NCBI RefSeq assembly: GCF_001618145.1
Contig: NZ_LQNF01000025.1
Coordinates: 1-64,000, forward strand
Reading direction: 5' to 3'
Length of the DNA: 64,000 nt
From: Oceanobacillus damuensis
GTDB lineage: Bacteria; Bacillota; Bacilli; Bacillales; Amphibacillaceae
This document shows positions 30,569-47,480 of this stretch, one piece after another (position 1 is the stretch's first letter; every line of letters begins with the position of its first letter). The position numbers and the translations under genes were made by a program. Below the pieces are notes generated by a model, which ran no database searches, had not been told where the DNA came from, and saw only the letters and a program-made list of their open reading frames with translations.

Positions 30569-32956
30569 CTAAATCATCAGATTTTCTGAATTGGAATTGA
30601 TCTCTTGAGTCCAATCTTCGATTTGTTTAATTTTTAATGATACATCTTCTGTTTTCTCTTTTTTTAGATGAAACTTTAAATGTACTATATCTAAATAGTA
30701 AAGAAACATTAAAATATCTTTTGCTGTACGTTTTTTTTCCTCTATTGAAAAATGTTCTTTAAATGAACTTGTAAGTAATTGTCTAGATCGTTCTTTTAAA
30801 TGACTTTCAGTATTCAAGATTAATCTATACATACTATTTTTAAAATAAAAATGTACTTCGGATGGAAGCTTTGATAAAATATCAGGATGTCTAGTTAATT
30901 CTTCAACACTGCATTTATAGTTGAAGGTAGCAAATGCTTCTAAGATTCTCCTTAGATTATTTCCGATATTTAAGTCATTAGTAGAACTATCTATTATAAA
31001 ATCAAATGCACTCTGAATTAAGGTTGAATATTCATCAAAATTTTCTTGTTTTACTACATCTAGTTCTTGGCTATCTAAATAAAATAATTTTAGTCCTTTA
31101 TTTTTATCAGTAATATTTAAATCACTATATACTTTGGCCATATTGTATAGAACATCTAAATCATGACTGAAAATAACTGATTTGCTTTTTTCATTACCAT
31201 AATGTAATTCATTAAGAATATATCTTAAAAACGAATATACGCCAACTTTATTTTCAAAATCAAAACTTGATAATGGATCATCTAGAATTAAAAGACATTC
31301 ATTCTTAAATAAATCTTCCATACTTTTATTTTGGAACAAGGTAGAGAAGAAATAACACAATGAAATTATATTTTTTTCGCCAATTGATAGAGAACTTGGT
31401 TTAACAGGCTTTCCTCTACTCATTACTTTATAGGAGTCCTTAGATGGTTCTAAGTATAATCTGTTTTCATCATAAAAAATATAACGTAAGTAATTGTTTA
31501 TTAATTCAAGGGCAATTTCTACATTTTCTAAACTTGCTTGCTTTTTATCGATTTTCCCCTGTATATTATTAATCTCTTTATTTCCGCTTATTTTATCCGC
31601 TTTAGCTTCCAAGAAAAGCTTATTCTTTTCTTTATATAAGTTTAGTAACTCTTTACACTCTAGATATGCCAATTTTTTATTGATATCTTTTAGCTCGTCG
31701 GCTATGGTTTTTTTTATGGTGATTTGTTTATTAAATTTTTTTACTTCTAAATTTACTGTTTTAATACATTCATTGATAATGTTGACTAAATGATTAATGT
31801 CAAAATCTATTCTTATTGGAGAATAAGGATTATTTTTTTTATTATTTTGTTCAGACTCTAATCGTTTTATAAATTCATTGTAAGATTCGATGTGAGTTTT
31901 AAGATTGTTGATTATCTTGTCATCAACAATTGTTTCGATCGATGAAACATCTATTTTATAATATTTGACTTCTATCTGGTTTAAGGTGTTTTTTAAATTA
32001 TTCGCAGCCTCTGTATTTAGGATTTTTCCGATGGTTTCAAGAACCATTGATTTATGATCGATATCGACATTTTGAAAACATATCGGGCATGTATTGTCTG
32101 AATTGTTTAAGAATATGTTAGCATCAGTAGTTTTTTTATTGTCTAATGATTTATAGACCTCAAGGATTTTTTGTTCTTTTTCACTTAGGTGTGGTTGTTG
32201 TAATTCTGATTTTAAAAGGTTAACTAACTTTTCAATATTAATATCTAATAATAAAGGTTCAACGTCTTTGATTGGAGTAGCCGATTTTAATTTTAGATAT
32301 TTACTATAAGTATTCTCAAATACAGTAAAAAGATTTTCATAAGAATCATTAATACTCTCAAAATTCATTAGCTCTCCGAATAGATTAGTATCAACTCTAC
32401 CCAATGTTTTTAAATCATTTATATTTTGGTGTCTAACGGACCAAAGTTGTCTGAGTTTATTTTTAATTTGTTCCTTAATATTAAAATGCGAATCTATGTT
32501 ATTAGGGTTGGACATTTTCTCTACCTTTTCGATGGTAGTATTATACTTTTCTTCTGACTTTTTTAGATCTTCTTCTAATGCCTCTAAATCTTTTTTAATA
32601 TCTAATTGTTCGCCAAACATAACTATAGTTCCAAGACCACTATCATTAAATGAAACAGTGTCATGAGTAAACTCTTCATTATGTACATAGCATGGTATAC
32701 TAATTTTCGATGTGTCAATTAGCTCTATACCCTGAGAGGGATGGGCTTTTAGTTTATAAAACTCTATTGACGAAAACTCCTTTTCTTTAGTAGGTTCAGA
32801 ATTGAATACTTCTTGAAAAGCACGTGAAATAGAAGATTTACCACTCCCATTTTTTCCATAAATAACTGTAGCAACTTGCTTATGATTATGGAAAAGTTTA
32901 AATTCTTTTTGTGAATTAAAATAACCGCCTGAAATTTTGATTGTTGAAATACTCAT
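30569..32956 (-). CDS. RloC/PrrC-like anticodon-nuclease-type ATPase
   Basis: A 795-residue ABC/SMC-like ATPase. Walker A YGKNGSGKSS is at 33-42. Two long coils flank a CPIC zinc hook (Cys290, Cys293). The ABC signature and Walker B follow late (LSIGEKNIISL, then CLLILDDPLSSFD). The C-terminal domain has R-x3-E (Arg669, Glu673 in RRILEAF) and a downstream His719 in TESH. In PrrC/RloC, Arg, Glu and His of a HEPN nuclease cleave tRNA anticodon loops when phage DNA damage or RM inhibition is sensed. Family membership is inferred from layout (AAA_13 type) and the zinc hook. A DNA-linked HEPN toxin of another kind is possible. It is divergent from the RM genes 0.5 kb away. Confidence 0.72.
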   Translation of the reverse strand: MSISTIKISGGYFNSQKEFKLFHNHKQVATVIYGKNGSGKSSISRAFQEVFNSEPTKEKEFSSIEFYKLKAHPSQGIELIDTSKISIPCYVHNEEFTHDTVSFNDSGLGTIVMFGEQLDIKKDLEALEEDLKKSEEKYNTTIEKVEKMSNPNNIDSHFNIKEQIKNKLRQLWSVRHQNINDLKTLGRVDTNLFGELMNFESINDSYENLFTVFENTYSKYLKLKSATPIKDVEPLLLDINIEKLVNLLKSELQQPHLSEKEQKILEVYKSLDNKKTTDANIFLNNSDNTCPICFQNVDIDHKSMVLETIGKILNTEAANNLKNTLNQIEVKYYKIDVSSIETIVDDKIINNLKTHIESYNEFIKRLESEQNNKKNNPYSPIRIDFDINHLVNIINECIKTVNLEVKKFNKQITIKKTIADELKDINKKLAYLECKELLNLYKEKNKLFLEAKADKISGNKEINNIQGKIDKKQASLENVEIALELINNYLRYIFYDENRLYLEPSKDSYKVMSRGKPVKPSSLSIGEKNIISLCYFFSTLFQNKSMEDLFKNECLLILDDPLSSFDFENKVGVYSFLRYILNELHYGNEKSKSVIFSHDLDVLYNMAKVYSDLNITDKNKGLKLFYLDSQELDVVKQENFDEYSTLIQSAFDFIIDSSTNDLNIGNNLRRILEAFATFNYKCSVEELTRHPDILSKLPSEVHFYFKNSMYRLILNTESHLKERSRQLLTSSFKEHFSIEEKKRTAKDILMFLYYLDIVHLKFHLKKEKTEDVSLKIKQIEDWTQEINSNSENLMI

Positions 32957-34072: not shown

Positions 34073-34132
34073 TAGGATTTAATTTTAAACGTATTAGATT
34101 CAACAATATAAGTAAATAGAAAGGTGACCAAA

Positions 34133-37100
34133 ATGGAAACAACACCATATAAAAGTTTTCTAGAACTTATTCAAGAGATTGATACAGTAGAACGTGAACA
34201 AAGAGATCGAGGTACACTTTTTGAATTGTTAATTTCCGCTTATTTAACACATGAACCAATGTATACACGTTTATTTGATGCAGTATGGCCTTTGAATGAA
34301 GTGCCGATAGAATATAATATTCCAAAACATGACACAGGTGTTGATTTAGTTGCCAGAAAACGAGATACAGGGGATTTAGTAGCTGTTCAATGTAAATTTT
34401 ATTCAAAAGATACTATTATCCAAAAAAAACATATTGATTCATTTTTAAATGAAATTGGAAAAAATTATTATACAGAAGGTTTAATTGTTACAACAACTGA
34501 TAAATGGAGTAAGAATGCAGATGACGCTTTGAATAATCGTAATAAGGCAATCATGCGGATTTCTTTATCCGATTTAGCTGACAGTCGTATTGATTGGTCT
34601 CAATATTCATTCCATAGACCTAAAGAGGTTTTTCTACAAGATAGGAAAACACCAAGACCTCATCAAAAACCAGCGATTGAAGCTGTTATAGATGGATTCA
34701 AAAATGCTAATCGGGGAAAACTCATTATGGCTCCAGGTACGGGGAAGACATTTACTTCACTGGCGATTGCGGAAAAAATGGCATCAGAAAAAGAAGGTAC
34801 TTTTAAGGTGTTGTATTTAGTACCAAGTATCCAACTACTATCACAAACCCTCCGAGCGTGGAACGCAGACACTCAATATAATATTGATTCAATCGCAGTA
34901 TGTTCCGATCGAAAAGTAACTAAAGAAAGAATTGGCACAGAAATTGAAGATATTGCAACTACAGATATAGGATTCCCAGCCACAACAAATGCCCTGAAAT
35001 TGCTAGAGTATCAAGAAACCATTGAATCAAAAAGTATTACAACGGAATTTATTGCTGTTTTTTCTACATATCAATCCATTGATGTCATTATAGATGCTCA
35101 AAGGGATGGCTTTTATGATTTTGATTTAATTATTTGTGATGAAGCACACCGTACAACAGGTACGACAGAGTTAAATCAAGAGGCATCAGCGTTTACCAAA
35201 GTACATAGTAATAGTAATGTTCAAGCAACTAAACGACTTTACCAAACAGCAACTCCACGTGTTTACGGTGAAGATGCTAAGAAAAAAGCTGAAGAAAATT
35301 CTATCATTATTGCAGACATGAATGATCCTGATACATATGGAGAAGAGTTTTATCGCCTTGGATTTGGTGATGCTATCCGTAAAGGTATTCTAACCGATTA
35401 TAAAGTAATGGTTTTAGCTGTTGAAAAAGATGTCATTGCTAGACGGTTTCAGGATATGTTAGCTAATACCGAATCTGGTTTAGCATTTGATGATATCACC
35501 AAGATTGTGGGATGTTGGAATGGACTAGTTAAACGGGATGGAAATAGCAATAAAACGCTAGGTGAACCGATGAAAAGAGCAATTGCGTTTACAGGAACGA
35601 TAAAAGACTCCAAGAAGATCACTGAAATGTTTTCAACTGTAGTAGACGAATATTTATATAAGAGCGGTGACGTTTCTGAGCCTTTTTCTATTGAAATTCA
35701 ACATGCAGATGGATCAATGAACGCTGTCGAGAAAAACGAAAAAATCAATTGGCTAAAAAGCAAAGTACCAAAAAACACCTGTCGGGTATTATCTAATGCT
35801 CGCTTTCTGACAGAAGGTGTAGATGTACCAGACCTTGATGCAGTTATGTTTCTAAAACCAAGAAAATCTAAAATAGATATTGCACAAGCTGTTGGACGGG
35901 TTATGCGTAAGTCGGAAGGAAAGGATTATGGCTATATCATTCTACCAATTGGGGTACCAGCAGGGGCTGAAGCACATTCTATATTAGATAATAACGAAAA
36001 TTATGCAGTAGTTTGGGAAATATTAAACGCTCTTCGTTCCATTGATGAACGCTTTGATGCCACAATTAATAAGCTTGAATTAAATAAGAAAAAGCCAGAT
36101 CAATTACAGATTATAGCTGTAGGAGATGCTCCAGAAGAAGGTTTAGAGCAAACGAGTGGACATGAGCAATTAACTGGAGAATCAGTATTGTTTGAGGAAG
36201 ATTTATCAGACTTAGAGCGAGCCATTTATGGGAAAATTGTTCAAAAAGTTGGTAATGTACGCTATTGGGAACAATGGTCGGAAGATGTTGCAGAGATTGC
36301 TCAAAAGCATATATTGCGAATTAATGTTATGTTGGAAGATAAAAAAAGTGATGCCTATAACGAATTTAAAAAGTTTGTAAAAAGTCTTCATCATAACATT
36401 AATGATTCTATTACGGAACAACAAGCAATTGAAATGTTGTCACAACACTTGATTACAAAGCCTATATTTGAGGCGTTATTTGACTCGTATAGCTTTGTGA
36501 ATAATAACCCCGTATCACAATCAATGGAATCCATTTTAGACATATTAGATAAACAAGGGCTTATGAAAGAACAAGAACAGTTAGAAGGTTTTTATGAAAG
36601 TGTTCGTATTCGGGCAGAGGGTATTGACAACTTGGAAGCTAAGCAAAAAATTATAATACAGCTTTACGACAAGTTCTTTAAAGTTGGCTTCAAGGAGACG
36701 ACCGATCGTTTAGGTATTGTTTTCACACCACTAGAAGTGGTGGATTTCATTATTCGCTCAGTTGACGTTGTTCTAAGTAAACATTTTTCTAAATCTATCG
36801 GGGATAGGAACATTCATATACTAGACCCATTCACAGGTACGGGTACTTTTATTACTAGAATCCTAAATTACTTAAAGAGAGAACTAGACCAAGGGAATAT
36901 AGAAATGGAAGACCTAGTTCGAAAATATACTCAAGAATTACATGCTAATGAAATCGTATTGCTCAGTTATTATATAGCTGCAATTAATATAGAAGAAACT
37001 TTTCATAGTATAGTAGAAGACGACTACAAACCATTTGAAGGAATAGTTCTTACGGATACTTTTGAGAGTACTGAACATAACGAATACTTCGATGGAATTC

Positions 37101-38827
37101 TTTTAAACGAGAATAACACTAGGTTGCAAAAGCAGAAAAACGAGAAGATATTTGCAATCGTCGGAAATCCTCCCTATTCTGTAGGGCAAAAAAATGCAAA
37201 TGATAACCGAGGGAACATAAACTATCCTTATTTAAATAAACAAATTGAAAAAACTTACGGAAAACATACAAAATCAAAGTTGAAAAAGGCGCTATACGAT
37301 TCTTATATTCTTGCTCTAAGGTGGGCTTCTGACCGTATTGCCGACAAAGGGGTAATCTCTTTTGTAACTAATGCTTCATTTATTGACAGTAATTCCACAG
37401 CAGGGGTAAGAAAAGCATTAAATGAAGAATTTAATTACGTGTATATATTCAATTTACGAGGGGACCAACGTACTCAAGGTGAGCAATCTAGAAAAGAAGG
37501 AGGTAAAATATTTGGCTCAGGCAGTAGAACGCCAATAGCGATTACTGTTTTAGTAAAAGATGGTTCTGAAATTCATAAAATCTATTATAACGATATAGGA
37601 GATTACTTAAGTAGAGAGGATAAGCTCAGCATATTATCAGAAAAGAAATCCATTGATGGGCTGGAATGGCAAGAAATCATCCCAGATGAAAATCACGACT
37701 GGATAAATCAAAGGGATACTAAATATAATAACTATCCCTCTATTGAAGAATTTTTCAATCACAAGGCCATAGGGATAAGTACAAATAGAGACGCTTGGGT
37801 TTATGGTTTTTCCAAAGATAAAGTAGAAAATAATGCTCTACAAATGGTAGGAAATTATAATCATGAATTAACTCGTTTATCCAACATAAAGGATTCTACT
37901 GAAAGACAGGATAAAAGAAATATGGATCCAAGCTATATTAAGTGGACAGTAAATCTGACTAAAAAATTTAAGAAAAACGAAAAGATTCAGTTGGATAAAA
38001 GTGATCTTACCCAAAGTATGTATCGTCCTTTCGTCAAGAAATGGTTGTTCTACAATAAAGATATTATAGAAAGACCAGGTCAATATAAAAATAAAATGGG
38101 TAATGACAATAAGGTAATTTATATTACAGGAAGTGGTGCAAGTAGAGACTTTTCTGCTTTAGTGGTAAATAAAGTTCCTAATCTACACTTGCAAGATTCC
38201 GGTCAAGGATTCCTGAAAAATATTTATAGAGAGGATAATCTTTTAGGAAGTTACGATAGCAATATTGCATTAAGTTCTTTTCTAGGTTTAGATTTAACAA
38301 CCGATGAATTGTTTAGCTATATCTACGCTGTCTTAAATTCTCCGGAGTACAAAGAGAAATATAGTAATGATTTAAACAAAGTACTCCCAAGAATTCCACT
38401 TTTGAAAAATAAAAATAAGTTTATAGAAGTTGGTCAGAAACTCATAGACTTGCACTTAAATTATGAAACGGAAGAGCCTTATGAAAATGTAACAATTAAA
38501 ATGAATCCTAATCCCTCATTTAAAGTTAAAAAGATGAAACATCCTAAAAAAGGAATGCTGGATACCATTATATTTAATAGTGATATTACTATTAAGGATA
38601 TACCAGAAAAAGCCTATGAATACGTAGTAAACGGTCGTCCTGCAATTGAATGGATTATTGATCAATATCAAGTTAAAACTGATAAGAACTCAGGTATCGT
38701 TGATGATCCGAATGACTATTCAGAAGATGAAAAGTATATCTTTAACTTGCTACTTCGTATAATCAATGTATCTGTTCAAACAGTTGATTTGGTAAACAGT
38801 TTGCCGGAGTTAAAAATTGAGGAATAA
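34133..38827 (+). CDS. Type ISP single-chain restriction-modification enzyme
   Basis: A 1564-residue fusion, close to LlaGI/LlaBIII in length. In order: an Mrr-like nuclease (Asp71, then QCK with Gln86 and Lys88); an SF2 helicase/translocase (Walker A APGTGKT at 200-206, DEAH in IICDEAHRTTG, QTATPR, GRVMRKSEGK); a coupler; a gamma-class N6-adenine methyltransferase (DPFTGTGTF near 899, NPPY at 1012); and a C-terminal target recognition domain. Such enzymes methylate one strand of an asymmetric site and translocate to collide head-to-head before cutting. AAAGGTGA precedes ATG 34133. The gene appears intact. The target sequence cannot be read. Confidence 0.9.
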   Translation: METTPYKSFLELIQEIDTVEREQRDRGTLFELLISAYLTHEPMYTRLFDAVWPLNEVPIEYNIPKHDTGVDLVARKRDTGDLVAVQCKFYSKDTIIQKKHIDSFLNEIGKNYYTEGLIVTTTDKWSKNADDALNNRNKAIMRISLSDLADSRIDWSQYSFHRPKEVFLQDRKTPRPHQKPAIEAVIDGFKNANRGKLIMAPGTGKTFTSLAIAEKMASEKEGTFKVLYLVPSIQLLSQTLRAWNADTQYNIDSIAVCSDRKVTKERIGTEIEDIATTDIGFPATTNALKLLEYQETIESKSITTEFIAVFSTYQSIDVIIDAQRDGFYDFDLIICDEAHRTTGTTELNQEASAFTKVHSNSNVQATKRLYQTATPRVYGEDAKKKAEENSIIIADMNDPDTYGEEFYRLGFGDAIRKGILTDYKVMVLAVEKDVIARRFQDMLANTESGLAFDDITKIVGCWNGLVKRDGNSNKTLGEPMKRAIAFTGTIKDSKKITEMFSTVVDEYLYKSGDVSEPFSIEIQHADGSMNAVEKNEKINWLKSKVPKNTCRVLSNARFLTEGVDVPDLDAVMFLKPRKSKIDIAQAVGRVMRKSEGKDYGYIILPIGVPAGAEAHSILDNNENYAVVWEILNALRSIDERFDATINKLELNKKKPDQLQIIAVGDAPEEGLEQTSGHEQLTGESVLFEEDLSDLERAIYGKIVQKVGNVRYWEQWSEDVAEIAQKHILRINVMLEDKKSDAYNEFKKFVKSLHHNINDSITEQQAIEMLSQHLITKPIFEALFDSYSFVNNNPVSQSMESILDILDKQGLMKEQEQLEGFYESVRIRAEGIDNLEAKQKIIIQLYDKFFKVGFKETTDRLGIVFTPLEVVDFIIRSVDVVLSKHFSKSIGDRNIHILDPFTGTGTFITRILNYLKRELDQGNIEMEDLVRKYTQELHANEIVLLSYYIAAINIEETFHSIVEDDYKPFEGIVLTDTFESTEHNEYFDGILLNENNTRLQKQKNEKIFAIVGNPPYSVGQKNANDNRGNINYPYLNKQIEKTYGKHTKSKLKKALYDSYILALRWASDRIADKGVISFVTNASFIDSNSTAGVRKALNEEFNYVYIFNLRGDQRTQGEQSRKEGGKIFGSGSRTPIAITVLVKDGSEIHKIYYNDIGDYLSREDKLSILSEKKSIDGLEWQEIIPDENHDWINQRDTKYNNYPSIEEFFNHKAIGISTNRDAWVYGFSKDKVENNALQMVGNYNHELTRLSNIKDSTERQDKRNMDPSYIKWTVNLTKKFKKNEKIQLDKSDLTQSMYRPFVKKWLFYNKDIIERPGQYKNKMGNDNKVIYITGSGASRDFSALVVNKVPNLHLQDSGQGFLKNIYREDNLLGSYDSNIALSSFLGLDLTTDELFSYIYAVLNSPEYKEKYSNDLNKVLPRIPLLKNKNKFIEVGQKLIDLHLNYETEEPYENVTIKMNPNPSFKVKKMKHPKKGMLDTIIFNSDITIKDIPEKAYEYVVNGRPAIEWIIDQYQVKTDKNSGIVDDPNDYSEDEKYIFNLLLRIINVSVQTVDLVNSLPELKIEE

Positions 38828-38861: not shown

Positions 38862-38897
38862 AAAAACAGCCCAAATTAAAGGGCTGTTTTATTTTTA
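38862..38897 (+). terminator. terminator of the RM gene
   Basis: AACAGCCC and GGGCTGTTTTATTTTT form a stem with an eight-base loop and a T-rich tail. Confidence 0.85.
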
Positions 38898-39509: not shown

Positions 39510-39635
39510 GTGAAAGAAATACTACAAGAATTAGACAGATGTCTAAATTACACAGAAGCTCAATTAGCTGATATTGAAAATAGTATTGCTTGTTCAAGGG
39601 GCGATTGTAAAGAGTTACTTGGTAAGGTTAATTAG
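39510..39635 (+). CDS. 41-residue helical peptide
   Basis: GTG 39510 overlaps a GAGG site; the frame VKEILQELDRCLNYTEAQLA continues through ENSIACSRGDCKELLGKVN. It is helical with three cysteines and is similar in pattern to the 38-residue peptide at 21062. It lies just upstream of the unknown membrane/soluble pair, so it could be part of the same unit. Confidence 0.45.
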   Translation: MKEILQELDRCLNYTEAQLADIENSIACSRGDCKELLGKVN

Positions 39636-39743
39636 TACATATTAAAAAATTTTTCTACTTTAGATGTCTTAAATTTATTTACATAAATTATTTCTTTGCT
39701 TATTATTAAATAAAAAGAGATTAAATTTAAGGAGGAGACATGT

Positions 39744-40523
39744 ATGCAGAGAATTTTATACAATAGAAAATTCTGGTTACCCGTTATAGTTCTCTTAATA
39801 AGCTTAATCTCAATATTTTTATACAGGAATATAGGAACGATAGCATCCAATTGGTTTGATACTTTAAAAATAACAATAGGGGTTATAGGTTTAGTTACAA
39901 CTCTTTTTAATTACTGGAAAAAATTTAATTTGTTTGTTACTAAGATTTGGATTATATTAACTAACTCAACCGCTATTTGGAATGTTTCTTCTAACTTTGA
40001 AGGTGAATTCGATAAAGAAAATTTCAAAAGAGCTATTAATGAAATTAGAAAAGGGAATCAAGTTAGTGATTATTTTGAAGTTAGTGAGACTATGGTAAAA
40101 CTTACAGTTAATGGGCTTAACTATAATTTTGAATACGTTGATATTGAAAATGACGAAGGCACTGGAGTTATCGGTAAAGTATATTGTAATATTGTTGATT
40201 TTAATAGTTCCTATGATTATTCAATAAAAGCATTTGGAGAAAACATAATCCCGTATTTTAGTATAATAGAGAAAAATCTTCGACCCGATGTAACAACTTT
40301 TAATTTCAAGATAAAATTTAGGGGTAAAAACCCTTTTATTAGATTAATCACAAAAAACGTAGATTTAAAAACAATTAGTTCGTTATGGTATTCTATACAA
40401 GAGACAACAACAGCTGGCAAAAGAAATATCAAGATTACTGATAAATCTATAGAGTGTACCACATCAAATATAACTGATTTTCAAAATTCTAGTATAAATT
40501 TCATATCATTGGTAGGTGAGTAA
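39744..40523 (+). CDS. unknown two-helix membrane protein, gene 1 of a pair
   Basis: A 259-residue protein behind AAGGAGGAG. Two N-terminal membrane segments (about residues 10-26 and 40-57) precede a cytosolic or extracellular beta-rich domain of about 190 residues (NFEYVDIENDEGTGVIGKVY, later FNFKIKFRGKNPFIRL). No known motif is seen. The second gene starts three bases after the stop. Its position next to the Type ISP enzyme and the RloC-like protein makes a defence role plausible: a membrane effector or anchor with a soluble partner. This is inference only. Confidence 0.6.
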   Translation: MQRILYNRKFWLPVIVLLISLISIFLYRNIGTIASNWFDTLKITIGVIGLVTTLFNYWKKFNLFVTKIWIILTNSTAIWNVSSNFEGEFDKENFKRAINEIRKGNQVSDYFEVSETMVKLTVNGLNYNFEYVDIENDEGTGVIGKVYCNIVDFNSSYDYSIKAFGENIIPYFSIIEKNLRPDVTTFNFKIKFRGKNPFIRLITKNVDLKTISSLWYSIQETTTAGKRNIKITDKSIECTTSNITDFQNSSINFISLVGE

Positions 40524-40526
40524 TTT

Positions 40527-41216
40527 TTGAAGTCATATCACTTTTTGGATGTTCAAAACTTCAGTGTGTTTGAAGGAGAATCTGAGGGATGTATAAAAAC
40601 AACTGAGCAACAACTCGCTATGGACGGTGTTGATGCACAACCCAAAAGTTCAATAAAACTAATTAAAAGGGACTACTATAAAGGATTTGATAAGTATATC
40701 ATTCACCATGAAAAGGTAAAAAGAAAATACGGAAGAGCATATGGTGAAGAGTTGTTTTTTAATAAGTTTGTAGAGAGTTCTAGTATGAATGTTTATTATA
40801 ATAAGCATTTTAGTTTAATGCTAATTGAGGGAAACAAATCATCCGTGAATGATTTTAAGAAAAAGTTTGAAAAACACTATCCTGAAGAATTTAGTTTATC
40901 CCGTTCAAATGTTGATTTCCCTTATCTTATCCAACATACGCAAAATGTTTGGGGAGGATGGTTGAACGGGTTTAACGATGGAAGTCTCAGAAGTGTTGCC
41001 CTTTATGGAGATAGAGTTAATCTGAGTGAGGATTACAATAGATATGAAGCTGCAGGTAAACTAAGCTCATTAAATTGCTCAATTGCTTTTGAAAAAGCAA
41101 GTTATGATTTTATGATAACCGCGAACAAAACAGTCGTTATAATGCAGAACAGAACTCCTGAAGAGGATTTGGATTTATTATTATTCATAAGACCTATGTT
41201 ATATAAAGATATTTAA
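40527..41216 (+). CDS. unknown soluble partner protein, gene 2 of a pair
   Basis: A 229-residue soluble protein starting at TTG 40527, with GGTGAG of the preceding gene's end as ribosome site. It begins LKSYHFLDVQNFSVFEGESE and contains HTQNVWGGWLNGFNDGSLRS and a late IMQNRTPEEDLDLLLFIRPM. It is alpha/beta without an obvious active site. The near-zero gap with the membrane gene and the shared terminator indicate a two-gene operon. I do not recognise the family. Confidence 0.6.
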   Translation: MKSYHFLDVQNFSVFEGESEGCIKTTEQQLAMDGVDAQPKSSIKLIKRDYYKGFDKYIIHHEKVKRKYGRAYGEELFFNKFVESSSMNVYYNKHFSLMLIEGNKSSVNDFKKKFEKHYPEEFSLSRSNVDFPYLIQHTQNVWGGWLNGFNDGSLRSVALYGDRVNLSEDYNRYEAAGKLSSLNCSIAFEKASYDFMITANKTVVIMQNRTPEEDLDLLLFIRPMLYKDI

Positions 41217-41240
41217 AGCCCTTCATTTGAGGGCTATTTC
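41215..41240 (+). terminator. terminator of the unknown pair
   Basis: AAAGCCCTTCATTTGAGGGCTATTTC: a 6-bp GC-rich stem directly overlapping the stop region. Confidence 0.7.
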
Positions 41241-41820: not shown

Positions 41821-42477
41821 ATGACTATTTTAGCTTCAGTTTTTGTTCCAGATGGAATAGTTATGGCCGCCGATAGTAGAGTAACTTTAACCACAACTTA
41901 CCCTAATGGAAGGGAGTGTAAAACTGTTGAGCGGGACAATGAATATAAGATATCGCTACTTCGAAAAGGAACTGTAGGGATAAGTTATCACGGGAAAACA
42001 CATATAGATAAAAAGCCAGTACCAGGATTATTAAAAGAGTTTGATGACAAGTATATTAATGAAAATGACACTTTGGAAGAAATCAGTAAAAAACTGCACG
42101 AATACATGTCACTTCATCCAGGAAGTGAAGTTTGTTTTATTGCTTGTGGATATGATAAAGGTGACCCTATTGCTTATACTATTTGTGAGGATGCTTATGT
42201 ACTAAATTTTAGCAACAGAAAACCATACCATGCCATTTGGCGAGGGGATATAGAACAGGTTGATAAACGATATTCTAATATCGATATTAATTCAAACCCT
42301 ATTCCACTGGAAAGTGCTATTGAATTTGCGGAATTAATTATCAAAACTGCAATAGATTACGAGGTTATCAAAGGGCATAATCCGTGTGGAGGACCTATTG
42401 ATGTATTGGTATTAACAAAAGGTTATACGAAATTTTACAAACATAAGAATATTAGTCTTATTGAATCAGAATGCTAA
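41821..42477 (+). CDS. proteasome-like Ntn-hydrolase fold protein
   Basis: A 218-residue protein starting MTILASVFVPDGIVMAADSR, the N-terminal pattern of proteasome beta/HslV subunits (TxxA...DGVVxAADSR). A threonine directly follows Met1 and could become the nucleophile after Met removal. A later GGPIDVLVLTKG resembles the C-terminal part of such folds. GGAGGGG lies six bases before the ATG. Neither an ATPase partner (HslU, Mpa) nor a second subunit is adjacent. Bacterial proteasome relatives (Anbu, BPH) exist, but this sequence is a distinct, short form. Alone in a mobile region, it may be a phage- or defence-linked peptidase. Confidence 0.65.
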   Translation: MTILASVFVPDGIVMAADSRVTLTTTYPNGRECKTVERDNEYKISLLRKGTVGISYHGKTHIDKKPVPGLLKEFDDKYINENDTLEEISKKLHEYMSLHPGSEVCFIACGYDKGDPIAYTICEDAYVLNFSNRKPYHAIWRGDIEQVDKRYSNIDINSNPIPLESAIEFAELIIKTAIDYEVIKGHNPCGGPIDVLVLTKGYTKFYKHKNISLIESEC

Positions 42478-44184: not shown

Positions 44185-44346
44185 GTGAAAAGGAATTATT
44201 CACTGCTAAAAATATTACAAGACGTATCCTGCGAAAATGATGTAAGTCGCACGTTAATCAACTTATGTTATCTTTCGTTAAACATGTTACAAATAGAAGG
44301 ACTTATGGCAAAAATGTTGGGTCCGCCAGATTTATTGTTCAGATGA
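44185..44346 (+). CDS. 53-residue small protein
   Basis: GTG 44185 follows AAAGGAG at a long spacing; the frame [20 protein letters not shown] continues to [14 protein letters not shown]. Its stop overlaps the ATG of the truncated endolysin (ATGA). It is not recognised, and may be the surviving end of a longer element gene. Confidence 0.4.
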
Positions 44347-44843
44347 GAGATAATATTGTTATGGACCGTACAGGTAAGGCTTTGGCTGATGCTATTGCTT
44401 CTCATTTTGGCCTGAAAAAGAAAAGTGGCGGTGCTGCTGGAACTTACACTGTCAAATCCGGTGACACTTTATGGAGTATTGCACAGGATCATAACATGAC
44501 AGTTGATGAACTAAAAGCGTTGAACGGGTTAACTGACAATACTATTTATCCGAGACAAGTATTAAAAGTGAGTGGATCTGGTTCTTCAGGTAATCTATAT
44601 GTTCAGGTTATTGTTTCAAGCTTGTTGGTGTATGATGTACCAGATTGGAATGCAAGACATTCAACAGTCAGTTCAGGAGAATTATTTACGATTGCAGAAA
44701 TATTAACCGTTGACGGATCGACGATGTACAAGCTTAAGTCAGGATTGTATATCACTGGTAATCCTAGTTATGTTCGAGTTTTTGAACAGTTGAGGGGTTA
44801 TTTTATTTCTCACAAATTGACTTTAGCGAGATATTTAAATTAA
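44343..44843 (+). pseudogene. truncated N-acetylmuramoyl-L-alanine amidase with LysM
   Basis: From ATG 44343 the frame reads [20 protein letters not shown], the last helix of an amidase_3 catalytic domain. A linker, a complete LysM domain ([20 protein letters not shown] to [10 protein letters not shown]) and an SH3-like tail ([20 protein letters not shown]) follow. The catalytic zinc residues of the amidase are gone, so this is a cell-wall-binding remnant of a phage-type endolysin. An upstream continuation in the same frame from 44265 does not match amidases. Confidence 0.7.
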
Positions 44844-45329: not shown

Positions 45330-45458
45330 ATGCTGAAAATCACAAATGATTTTATTAATTTGACACAGGGGCAACTATTAATAAAATATTGGTGGTTATG
45401 GTTGATAATAATTGTCTTTACTTGTTTTTATATGTTTAGAAAAAAATTAATTCCTTAG
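45330..45458 (+). CDS. 42-residue single-span membrane peptide
   Basis: ATG 45330 has AAGGAG eight bases upstream. The frame MLKITNDFINLTQGQLLIKY ends WWLWLIIIVFTCFYMFRKKL and two more residues. One aromatic-rich membrane helix with a basic tail is visible. Longer starts upstream lack a ribosome site. It overlaps the end of the opposite-strand gene at 45447, and may be a toxin or holin-like peptide. Confidence 0.45.
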   Translation: MLKITNDFINLTQGQLLIKYWWLWLIIIVFTCFYMFRKKLIP

Positions 45459-46088
45459 ACAAAAACCAATGAATTTTTGGCCAAAGCTATTTAAACTTAT
45501 GGCTTGATTTAATGCATTATCTGATCCATTTCCAATGGTCATACTTTGCTGAGATGCATTAATAAATCCGTAGTTTTTAATTCTTCCAACTGCACCAACG
45601 ATAACGGGCTGTTCGACACCGGGCTTGTTTATTGATCCAACTAAAGTCATATCGGGATGAATAGATTTTAAGTAATTTAATAATTCTACTTCTAGCAAAG
45701 TCATATCCGCTAAGGTGTCAATGAAATACCTACGTTCATCAAAGTTATTCTTATTAGTTGATTCAGAAAGAGTATGCTTTAGGAAATTTTTGAAGTAAGA
45801 TCTCTTCTTTTCAAGAACCTCTTGCTCTATCTTCTCGTTTAACCTTTCAATAATTGCAATTAAAGCGTCCTCATCGTGTGATTTAATTGACTTAAATCTA
45901 TAATCAATTTCTTGCATTTGACGGGAGAACTCTTCGTAAAAGCTTTCTATCCGTTTAAACCTTTTCTCATTTTTTGTACCAAAATAGGCAGTAGCCAATG
46001 GTCCTCCTACAGTAGGTATAAGCTGCAATCCAGACTCCACGATAATATCAAATTTTTTTCTCCCGCTTAATTTTTCATCATTCGACAT
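45447..46088 (-). CDS. glycine-rich/coiled-coil protein, possible Abi type
   Basis: A 213-residue protein from ATG 46088 behind GGGAGGG (a further upstream start has no site). After a short basic head the segment GLQLIPTVGGPLATAYFG is glycine-rich and hydrophobic. A charged coiled coil (EDALIAIIERLNEKIEQEVL) and a C-terminal domain with PVIVGAVGRIKNYGFIN follow. The arrangement resembles abortive-infection/DUF4393-type proteins, which is a tentative comparison. It lies divergent from the SDH-type protease gene. Confidence 0.5.
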   Translation of the reverse strand: MSNDEKLSGRKKFDIIVESGLQLIPTVGGPLATAYFGTKNEKRFKRIESFYEEFSRQMQEIDYRFKSIKSHDEDALIAIIERLNEKIEQEVLEKKRSYFKNFLKHTLSESTNKNNFDERRYFIDTLADMTLLEVELLNYLKSIHPDMTLVGSINKPGVEQPVIVGAVGRIKNYGFINASQQSMTIGNGSDNALNQAISLNSFGQKFIGFCLRN

Positions 46089-46322
46089 AAAATTTCCCTC
46101 CCTTAATATATAATTAGACAAACGCATAGTAATTCCTCCTATTTTATTAAATTAATTTAAGCAACAAAAAAGACCGCTATACACGATCCTTCCTGCTGAA
46201 ACAGTTGGGGTTTTTTATTGAAATTGAATTTTAATATAAAAAAATATTTATTATATAAAGGACTTTCTTCACAGGTGTCGAATACTATATTTTAGAAGAT
46301 AAATAAGGAGGGGGAGAAAAAG

Positions 46323-47480
46323 ATGGGAATATATTGGGAATACATAGACAAAAATATGAACTTTGATGAAATAACCGCTGAAAGAAAGAGATTATTAAAA
46401 AAAATCTCCTCATTAAGAAACAACCGTGATGTAATTGTTTACGCTGCTGATTATAGTAAAAATCAGGCGCCAATCTCATTAACTTATGACGACTTAATTC
46501 CATTTTATGACCAACTGTCAAATTTACATGGTGATAGTGTTGACCTTATTTTAGAAACACCTGGTGGTTCGGGAGAAGTAGCCGAAGACATTGTGAAGAC
46601 ATTAAGGAACAAATATAAAAACATAGCAGTGATTATTCCTGGTTGGGCAAAAAGCGCTGGAACAATTATAGCTATGGCTTGCGATGATATTTTAATGGAC
46701 AGCACTTCAGCATTAGGACCAATCGACGCACAATTATCATGGCAGGGTAAGACTTTTTCAGCCGACGCTTTAATTAAGGGTTTTGAAAAAATTAAAGATG
46801 AAGTTGAACAGAAAAATCATCTTAATCAAGCATATATTCCAATTCTTCAGGGAATATCACCGGGAGAATTGGAAAGCGCACAGAATTCCTTGGATTTTGC
46901 GAAAGACCTCGTTAAACAATGGTTGATATCGTATAAATTTAAGGATTGGAATGTTCACTCTGGTTCTGGCATAGAAGTAACTAAGGAGAAAAAAAGCCAA
47001 AGAGCTGAGGAAATAGCAACAGAATTATGTAACCATGAAAAATGGAAAACCCATGGAAGATCTTTACGTATAAAAGATTTAGAAGAAATGAAATTGAAAA
47101 TTACTAATTATGAAGATATTCCTGAACTTGACGAGGCAATCAAAAGATACAGGGCGCTATTAAGCAAGAGTTTTGATAGTAATATCTTCAAAATCATTGA
47201 AACAGGTGATTCTCAAATATATAGACATTTAAATGGTCAAAATAACACCCCTCAAAAACCACAGGAAAGAGATATATTTTTTGTTGATGTTAAATGTACG
47301 AAATGCCACTATGTAAATAAAATCCAGATCAATGTGGCAAAACCCAAACCCATTCAAAAAGGGTATAAAAGCATTTCAGAGGATGGAACTGTAATCTGTT
47401 ATGGTTGCTCTGAACAAGTAAATTTGACACAATTATTAAAACAAATTGAAGCAAAGGCAAAGAAACCTGTGGTAATATAA
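46323..47480 (+). CDS. SDH-type Clp-fold serine protease with zinc ribbon
   Basis: A 385-residue protein. Residues 60-180 have the Clp/crotonase fold of the serine dehydrogenase proteinase family: ETPGGSGEVAEDIVKTLR, then AKSAGTIIAMACDDI with the candidate nucleophilic serine, and LGPIDAQL. A helical middle follows, and a C-terminal zinc ribbon has CTKCHYVNK and CYGCSEQ. Most family members are membrane-linked archaeal or phage-associated proteases; this one has no membrane segment. GGAGGGGG precedes ATG. It is followed closely by a 59-residue gene. Confidence 0.78.
   Translation: MGIYWEYIDKNMNFDEITAERKRLLKKISSLRNNRDVIVYAADYSKNQAPISLTYDDLIPFYDQLSNLHGDSVDLILETPGGSGEVAEDIVKTLRNKYKNIAVIIPGWAKSAGTIIAMACDDILMDSTSALGPIDAQLSWQGKTFSADALIKGFEKIKDEVEQKNHLNQAYIPILQGISPGELESAQNSLDFAKDLVKQWLISYKFKDWNVHSGSGIEVTKEKKSQRAEEIATELCNHEKWKTHGRSLRIKDLEEMKLKITNYEDIPELDEAIKRYRALLSKSFDSNIFKIIETGDSQIYRHLNGQNNTPQKPQERDIFFVDVKCTKCHYVNKIQINVAKPKPIQKGYKSISEDGTVICYGCSEQVNLTQLLKQIEAKAKKPVVI

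Follow-up and report, generated by a model that had tools for sequence, protein, structure and literature searches.

Rex is among the oldest known abortive infection systems, and the question of what RexA senses is 70 years old. As outlined in one account (PMC12894663), the view taken of phage lambda is that RexA recognises intermediates of phage replication, or protein-DNA complexes, and opens RexB, so that membrane potential and ATP are lost; in Pseudomonas putida, RexA when overproduced suppresses growth in a RexB-dependent manner, and a small subpopulation of the cells suffers membrane damage. By the count of that account only five RexAB-like systems had been described by January 2026, four of which are taken to use the membrane partner as effector. 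RexAB appears in Proteobacteria only in what a DefenseFinder survey outlines, the models and database of which may limit detection (PMC9090908). Here we describe two adjoining genes, A and B, encoding a membrane protein and a soluble protein in a stretch of 64,000 nucleotides from Oceanobacillus damuensis (contig NZ_LQNF01000025.1, positions 1 to 64,000 of the forward strand; hereafter the window). We computed the conservation of the pair, its mobility and genomic context, the predicted fold of B and the membrane anchoring of A. The reading that we favour, and consider fairly probable, is that A and B form a Rex-type phage exclusion (abortive infection) module of prophages and defence islands in Bacillus-like and other related bacteria.

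Pairs were gathered from family, order, class and phylum genome samples, one genome-contig scan and viral-contig scans, resulting in 18 A-B pairs in 15 genomes and three viral contigs (L010, L040 and L041). Searches of 159 family genomes with A and with B matched the same 4 genomes, with the genes side by side, and B was matched in 4/159 family, 5/397 order, 6/398 class and 5/398 phylum genomes, these samples overlapping and each including the window's own genome unless otherwise stated. A stood alongside B in 18 of 20 B matches, once with an insertion between them; in L027 (6684-9551) the two genes are parted by 1,413 bases that by eye resemble an IS3-type insertion. The two B matches without A were a remnant of B with no A remnant found (G274/L018) and a match dropped as doubtful (G1039/L035; 51 residues, E 5e-4, inside a 1086-residue frame). 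Reverse searching found A in 7/398 class genomes, always with B; six were known pairs, and in the seventh (G294/L066, kept outside the 18) a diverged and seemingly interrupted B lies directly behind A (E 8.4e-10), amid phage-like replication and packaging genes recognised by eye. Duplicates were merged: L010 and L039 are one contig, and L003 (G058) and L009 are one place. In tblastn searches, window A had no match in plasmids or phages, the B proteins of L010, L029 and L002 had none in phages, and those of L016 and the window had none in plasmids; viral-contig scans run with the B proteins of L036, L002 and L037 found no relatives.

Over the 18 pairs, the protein distances of A and of B correlate (Mantel r 0.90; 0 of 5000 permutations as high). 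Compared with the closest relative, L041 (window 39744-41216 against L041 9212-10645, a contig that ends inside B after 215 of about 229 residues), identity is 73% for B and 42% for A; non-synonymous divergence (dN) is 0.20 for B, where synonymous divergence (dS) is saturated, and 0.51 for A, where dS is 1.24. Given that dN is lower than dS, both genes are under constraint, with A changing faster. Combined with the presence of relatives in many genomes, this indicates that A and B are genuine genes, beyond chance open frames. The faster divergence of A is the opposite of what might be expected if only the sensor met phage.

The model of B (predicted local distance difference test, pLDDT, 90.3; predicted template modelling score, pTM, 0.86) shows in Foldseek and VIA-align comparisons the RdgC fold that is common to lambda RexA, and this RdgC/RexA fold is predicted confidently. 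In sequence, hhalign gave a weak similarity of B to RdgC (score 32.3, P 7.6e-4) that was reached by none of 150 column shuffles, while RexA proteins score 14.9-17.4 against RdgC, the profiles being of unequal depth. Neither the Pfam RexA model nor the RdgC family model PF04381 matched any of the 17 B members scanned at E 0.1; PF04381 also had no match in the window's own genome at E 1, and control genomes hold one above the cut-off, with E. coli topping the list. NCBIfam, scanned with B alone, did not recognise it, and phrog_18260, a phage family whose function is not known, matches 8 of the 17 members (window B at E 1.6e-6). A Pfam FimH match of B (E 0.0075, below the cut-off) was rejected as absent from all other members. 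If strands 81-92 and 97-101 of B correspond to RdgC beta 4 and 5, B would have no room for the two-helix tip domain of RdgC. RdgC is associated with recombination and is found in phages too, E. coli RdgC being matched by 430 of 50,697 phage records. The resemblance of B to it could alternatively mean that the pair is mobile cargo for recombination or DNA maintenance of its element and not a defence system. We regard this as highly improbable: to our knowledge RdgC has no membrane partner, and a conserved one fits no role known for it; B is shorter than RdgC (229 residues against 303); and the family model misses every member scanned. Because it misses that model and has a membrane partner, B is not taken as an RdgC.

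The AlphaFold model of A (pLDDT 82.5) consists of two N-terminal helices followed, from about residue 76, by an alpha/beta domain. The preliminary description of the locus, made from the DNA letters, had called A a two-helix membrane protein with a beta-rich domain; the helices are present in the model, and the domain is mixed alpha/beta, not purely beta. Hydropathy shows a strong first segment in 18/18 members and a second above threshold in 5/18, the window protein falling below it there. Members are 233-274 residues long, their hydrophobic segments are confined to the first 63 residues, and positive residues flanking the helices suggest that the N terminus and the C-terminal domain are probably cytoplasmic. 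The soluble domain is like KA1 and S-adenosylmethionine decarboxylase domains at fold level only. A shows no profile similarity to RexB (hhalign), no Pfam or PADLOC model recognises A or B, and neither profile found a PDB sequence below E 0.07. Individual A members matched SduA, Csm5 and PDC-S05 in PADLOC (E 5e-4 to 0.03), and these matches were taken as chance; the SduA and PDC-S05 matches span 37 and about 52 residues in different members, and the member behind the Csm5 match lay outside the ten rescanned. The claim that the pair has no recognisable motif stands for both proteins in Pfam and PADLOC and for B in NCBIfam, but not against the phrog_18260 match and the recognisable predicted fold of B.

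Nucleotide-signal systems of the CBASS/Panoptes kind include two-helix membrane effectors that carry a ligand domain, which raises the possibility that A is such an effector and B its synthase. This is the most improbable of the explanations considered, since B has no polymerase or nucleotidyltransferase match save Cas10b in one member (E 0.012), its fold is RdgC-like, and A has an alpha/beta domain instead of a barrel. No clear cyclic-nucleotide synthase was seen in B or in the part of the neighbours that was scanned, although a TIR gene of the CAP12/Pycsar type stands 2.4 kb from the pair in L027. A Cap15/OptE-like two-helix nucleotide receptor was rejected for A in view of the missing Pfam and PADLOC match, the alpha/beta domain and the lack of a recognised synthase in B.

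To place the pairs in their genomes, the 15 genomes were searched for phage-type recombinases (PF00589 and PF00239) and for the ImmA/IrrE peptidase (PF06114), which accompanies many prophage repressors. Within 5 kb of the pair, a recombinase was found in 7/15 genomes (expected 0.66, P 1.2e-6), the peptidase in 7/15 (expected 0.11, P 3.2e-12) and one or the other in 8/15, far above background; the expectations derive from hits per genome, with the 15 genomes treated as independent and genome sizes rounded. The pair lies between an ImmA/IrrE peptidase and an integrase in viral contigs L010 and L040 and directly after an amidase gene in L041, although these three, being drawn from a viral collection, are no test of context. 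Defence genes occur near prophage-borne pairs as well, namely AbiV in L036 and, 2.4 kb from the pair in L027, the TIR plus AlbA gene. In the remaining seven genomes, that of the window included, no recombinase and no peptidase was found within 5 kb, and six of the seven pairs lie near restriction, Tn7-like, reverse transcriptase or OLD-like genes. The pair of the window follows a type ISP restriction gene and has a serine recombinase at a distance of 5.8 kb. In G141 the pair adjoins a Tn7-like TnsD and genes with TniB/AAA and Mu-transposase domains, in G375 a reverse transcriptase is half a kilobase away, in G259 type I restriction genes are 1.6 kb away, in G090 hsdM is 4.6 kb and an integrase 6.7 kb away, and in G058 an OLD-like TOPRIM ATPase is 2.1 kb away; the G739 pair lies amid transposase-like frames recognised by eye only. 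The preliminary description had made its defence proposal depend on such pairs not lying mainly outside defence contexts and on structural homologues not pointing to housekeeping. The defence proposal survives on both counts: the majority of the pairs found are located in prophage-like modules or have defence genes nearby, and the proteins structurally related to B are not only RdgC but also lambda RexA, which acts in phage exclusion.

Recombinase and ImmA/IrrE genes so often near the pair would also suit a pair that tunes the prophage lysis-lysogeny switch, exclusion being a side effect or absent, as lambda RexA biases that switch without RexB in the outline of PMC11077077. We think this quite unlikely, given that the seven pairs without recombinase or peptidase within 5 kb, six of them near defence or Tn7-like genes, have no evident prophage switch to tune. 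Small membrane proteins of prophage lysogeny modules often act in superinfection exclusion at entry, and a SieB gene is annotated near rex in lambda; A might accordingly block DNA injection by related phages, with B as an accessory. However, the DNA-clamp fold of B points to sensing inside the cell and several pairs lie outside recognisable prophages, making exclusion at entry very unlikely.

The pair unites features known together from Rex, namely a clamp fold, a membrane partner that is conserved, and a place in lysogeny modules and beside defence genes, which suggests that B senses phage DNA complexes and triggers A. By analogy with the Rex systems of lambda, Sbash, CarolAnn and P. putida, B would dimerise as a clamp on DNA, notice the DNA or the replication-recombination complexes of an invading phage and then switch on A, which would be anchored by its two-helix membrane hairpin and use its soluble domain for contact with B. 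Activated A would open or damage the membrane, and growth would stop before phage is made, resulting in phage exclusion.

Several observations weigh against a Rex-type module. The sequence signal between B and RdgC rests mainly on part of the family, given that the two halves of the alignment score 17.7 and 30.5, and B against RexA stays at noise in hhalign (13.8 lambdoid, 11.8 actinophage, 13.3 Butters), a test that fails for lambdoid against actinophage RexA too (14.6). RdgC is a recombination protein, so that the fold alone is no proof of defence. The net charge of B, negative in 14/18 members, would neither support nor exclude DNA binding because RdgC is negative as well (7/7). RexB is a 144-residue four-helix protein, whereas A has two helices and a soluble domain of about 175 residues. 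Finally, lambda carries rexA then rexB on one strand, whereas here A comes first (6/18) or the genes are convergent, their ends often overlapping (12/18).

Convergent and often overlapping genes would allow A and B to be expressed separately, and this arrangement together with the faster divergence of A brings in reversed roles, as proposed for mycobacteriophage Butters, in which B would be the antiphage effector and A an anchor keeping it inactive until infection. Butters gp30 alone blocks two phages and gp31 relieves the block, as outlined in PMC7542560 and summarised in PMC12894663. We consider such a reversal unlikely, since the membrane partner is held to be the effector in most described Rex-type systems, as noted above, and a two-helix protein with a large soluble domain would resemble an effector more than a mere anchor.

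There is about an even chance that the pair represents a separate Rex-type lineage, one that joined an RdgC-related clamp to an unrelated two-helix membrane effector bearing a soluble domain of its own, and did so independently of lambda and the actinophages. A bolder version would have the soluble domain of A pair with B in the manner of Iml3 and Chl4, two proteins of the RdgC fold, the effector directly touching the DNA clamp. The strand order in the soluble domain of A resembles that of B, judged by eye. By contrast, the profiles of A and B show no similarity in hhalign (11.6 and 10.3), and RdgC is not among the 50 entries listed for A.

The preliminary description of a 229-residue soluble partner 3 bases after a membrane gene, the pair standing behind a restriction-modification gene, was borne out (Table 1). 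A starts with ATG, and AAGGAGGA stands upstream. The TTG start of B agrees with the alignment (17 rows; frames of L010, L016, L017, L027 and L028 trimmed upstream by hand), and the near relative L041 has ATG there. The hairpin after the restriction gene, which is better than that after B, indicates that the pair is probably a unit of its own. A hairpin does follow B, as the claim of an own terminator required, but its T tail is poor and terminator-like sites in the region (5 against 2.9, sd 1.7, in shuffles) give it no clear excess; promoter-like sites show no excess either (41 against 36.1, sd 6.4). The 41-residue frame said to precede the pair is present, but it has no convincing match in the fetched loci (best E 1.5) and is therefore not counted as part of the system.

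Table 1. Features of the A-B locus in the window.
Feature	Position	Strand	Basis
Gene A: 259-residue membrane protein, proposed effector at the membrane (analogous, not homologous, to RexB)	39744..40523	+	Open reading frame; relatives adjoin B in 18 pairs; AlphaFold model
Gene B: 229-residue soluble protein with predicted RdgC/RexA fold, proposed sensor (DNA clamp)	40527..41216	+	Open reading frame; model; Foldseek and VIA-align
Two membrane helices of A (residues 8-35, 37-57)	39765..39914	+	Model helices, hydropathy
Soluble alpha/beta domain of A (residues 76-251)	39969..40496	+	Model
B residues 72-204, colinear profile alignment with E. coli RdgC 107-251	40740..41138	+	hhalign
Terminator-like hairpin 3' of B, 7 pairs, poor T tail	41217..41235	+	Hairpin scan
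Terminator-like hairpin 3' of type ISP restriction gene	38863..38890	+	Hairpin scan
Type ISP restriction gene	34124..38827		
41-residue frame	39510..39635		

Prophage or lysogeny-module carriage was not found for the window pair itself, which sits in a defence island that has an isolated LysM fragment close by. At 44265-44843, some 3 kb downstream, a LysM and DUF5776 protein (Pfam) resembles the end part of a phage endolysin, a hint of prophage remains in the island. After the pair, 41821-42477 encodes a small proteasome-like (Ntn hydrolase-like) protein (Pfam Proteasome at E 0.049 only), and a protein near the L036 pair (L036 15043-15726) looks similar to it by eye. Near the restriction gene lies a 795-residue AAA_13 ATPase (30569-32956, minus strand; Pfam E 6e-46) that could be a defence gene of the island. 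The same island holds a ClpP-like SDH-type serine protease (46323-47480; Pfam E 5e-18), and 45447-46127 (minus strand) has a weak Abi_alpha match (E 7.7e-4, below the cut-off).

By titles and abstract beginnings among the matches listed, no account of a Rex-type pair in Bacillus-like bacteria or their phylum was found in the open-licence literature, and such a pair would extend an abortive infection system to new hosts and show that its membrane effector can be exchanged. If the pair is a separate Rex-type lineage, Rex would be a general design, an RdgC-fold clamp plus any membrane effector, rather than one family, and B, nearer RdgC in sequence than RexA proteins are, would mark a path from recombination protein to infection sensor. 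Being smaller too, B may be an easier protein in which to see a DNA clamp become such a sensor, with Bacillus subtilis as a tractable host for asking what RexA senses.

Set beside lambda RexAB, the A-B pair is likewise a prophage-borne pair of one soluble and one membrane protein, the soluble partner having the RdgC/RexA fold (B by model), and the lysogeny-module placement in lambda corresponds to the recombinase or ImmA/IrrE genes nearby in 8/15 genomes. RexA, by contrast, has 279 residues to the 229 of B, and hhalign brought out no sequence similarity between the lambda proteins and the pair. Sbash (gp30/gp31), CarolAnn (gp44/gp43), Sejanus (46/45) and Butters (gp30/gp31) also combine a soluble with a membrane partner; the CarolAnn and Sejanus pairs lie between repressor and integrase, those of Sbash and Butters a few genes after lysin and holin, and the same two placements recur here. 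In Sejanus (L052 2513-4064), a helix-turn-helix protein, an annotated RexA-family protein, its hypothetical partner, an IrrE-like gene and an integrase follow a layout strikingly like that of the prophages here. Unlike B, the actinophage soluble proteins have 356-403 residues and share no profile similarity with it, nor do three actinophage membrane partners of 148-178 residues with A, Butters gp31 being outside that comparison. As outlined in PMC6426606 and PMC6426596, four helices are predicted for the CarolAnn and Sbash membrane partners, and the count of hydrophobic segments used here gave four for lambdoid RexB in 3/3 and 3, 4 and 3 for the actinophage partners. RexABpp of P. putida (PP_5643-5644), likened by description, is a cryptic-prophage pair whose RexA-like soluble member was recognised by HHpred and fold and whose membrane member, the effector there, has no recognised homologue; that protein has four predicted helices, however, and B shows no RexA sequence signal. 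The features of Rex found here are thus the RexA/RdgC-fold soluble partner, the adjoining membrane protein and prophage carriage, while the small four-helix RexB and the order rexA then rexB on one strand are not found. The proposal of a candidate antiphage system in the preliminary description gains support from the genomic context and the fold of B, as a new Rex-type branch rather than a wholly new kind. The pair would work like Rex but is not filed as RexAB, given its different gene order and a membrane partner other than a four-helix RexB; it is best labelled a Rex-type module whose membrane effector is of another kind.
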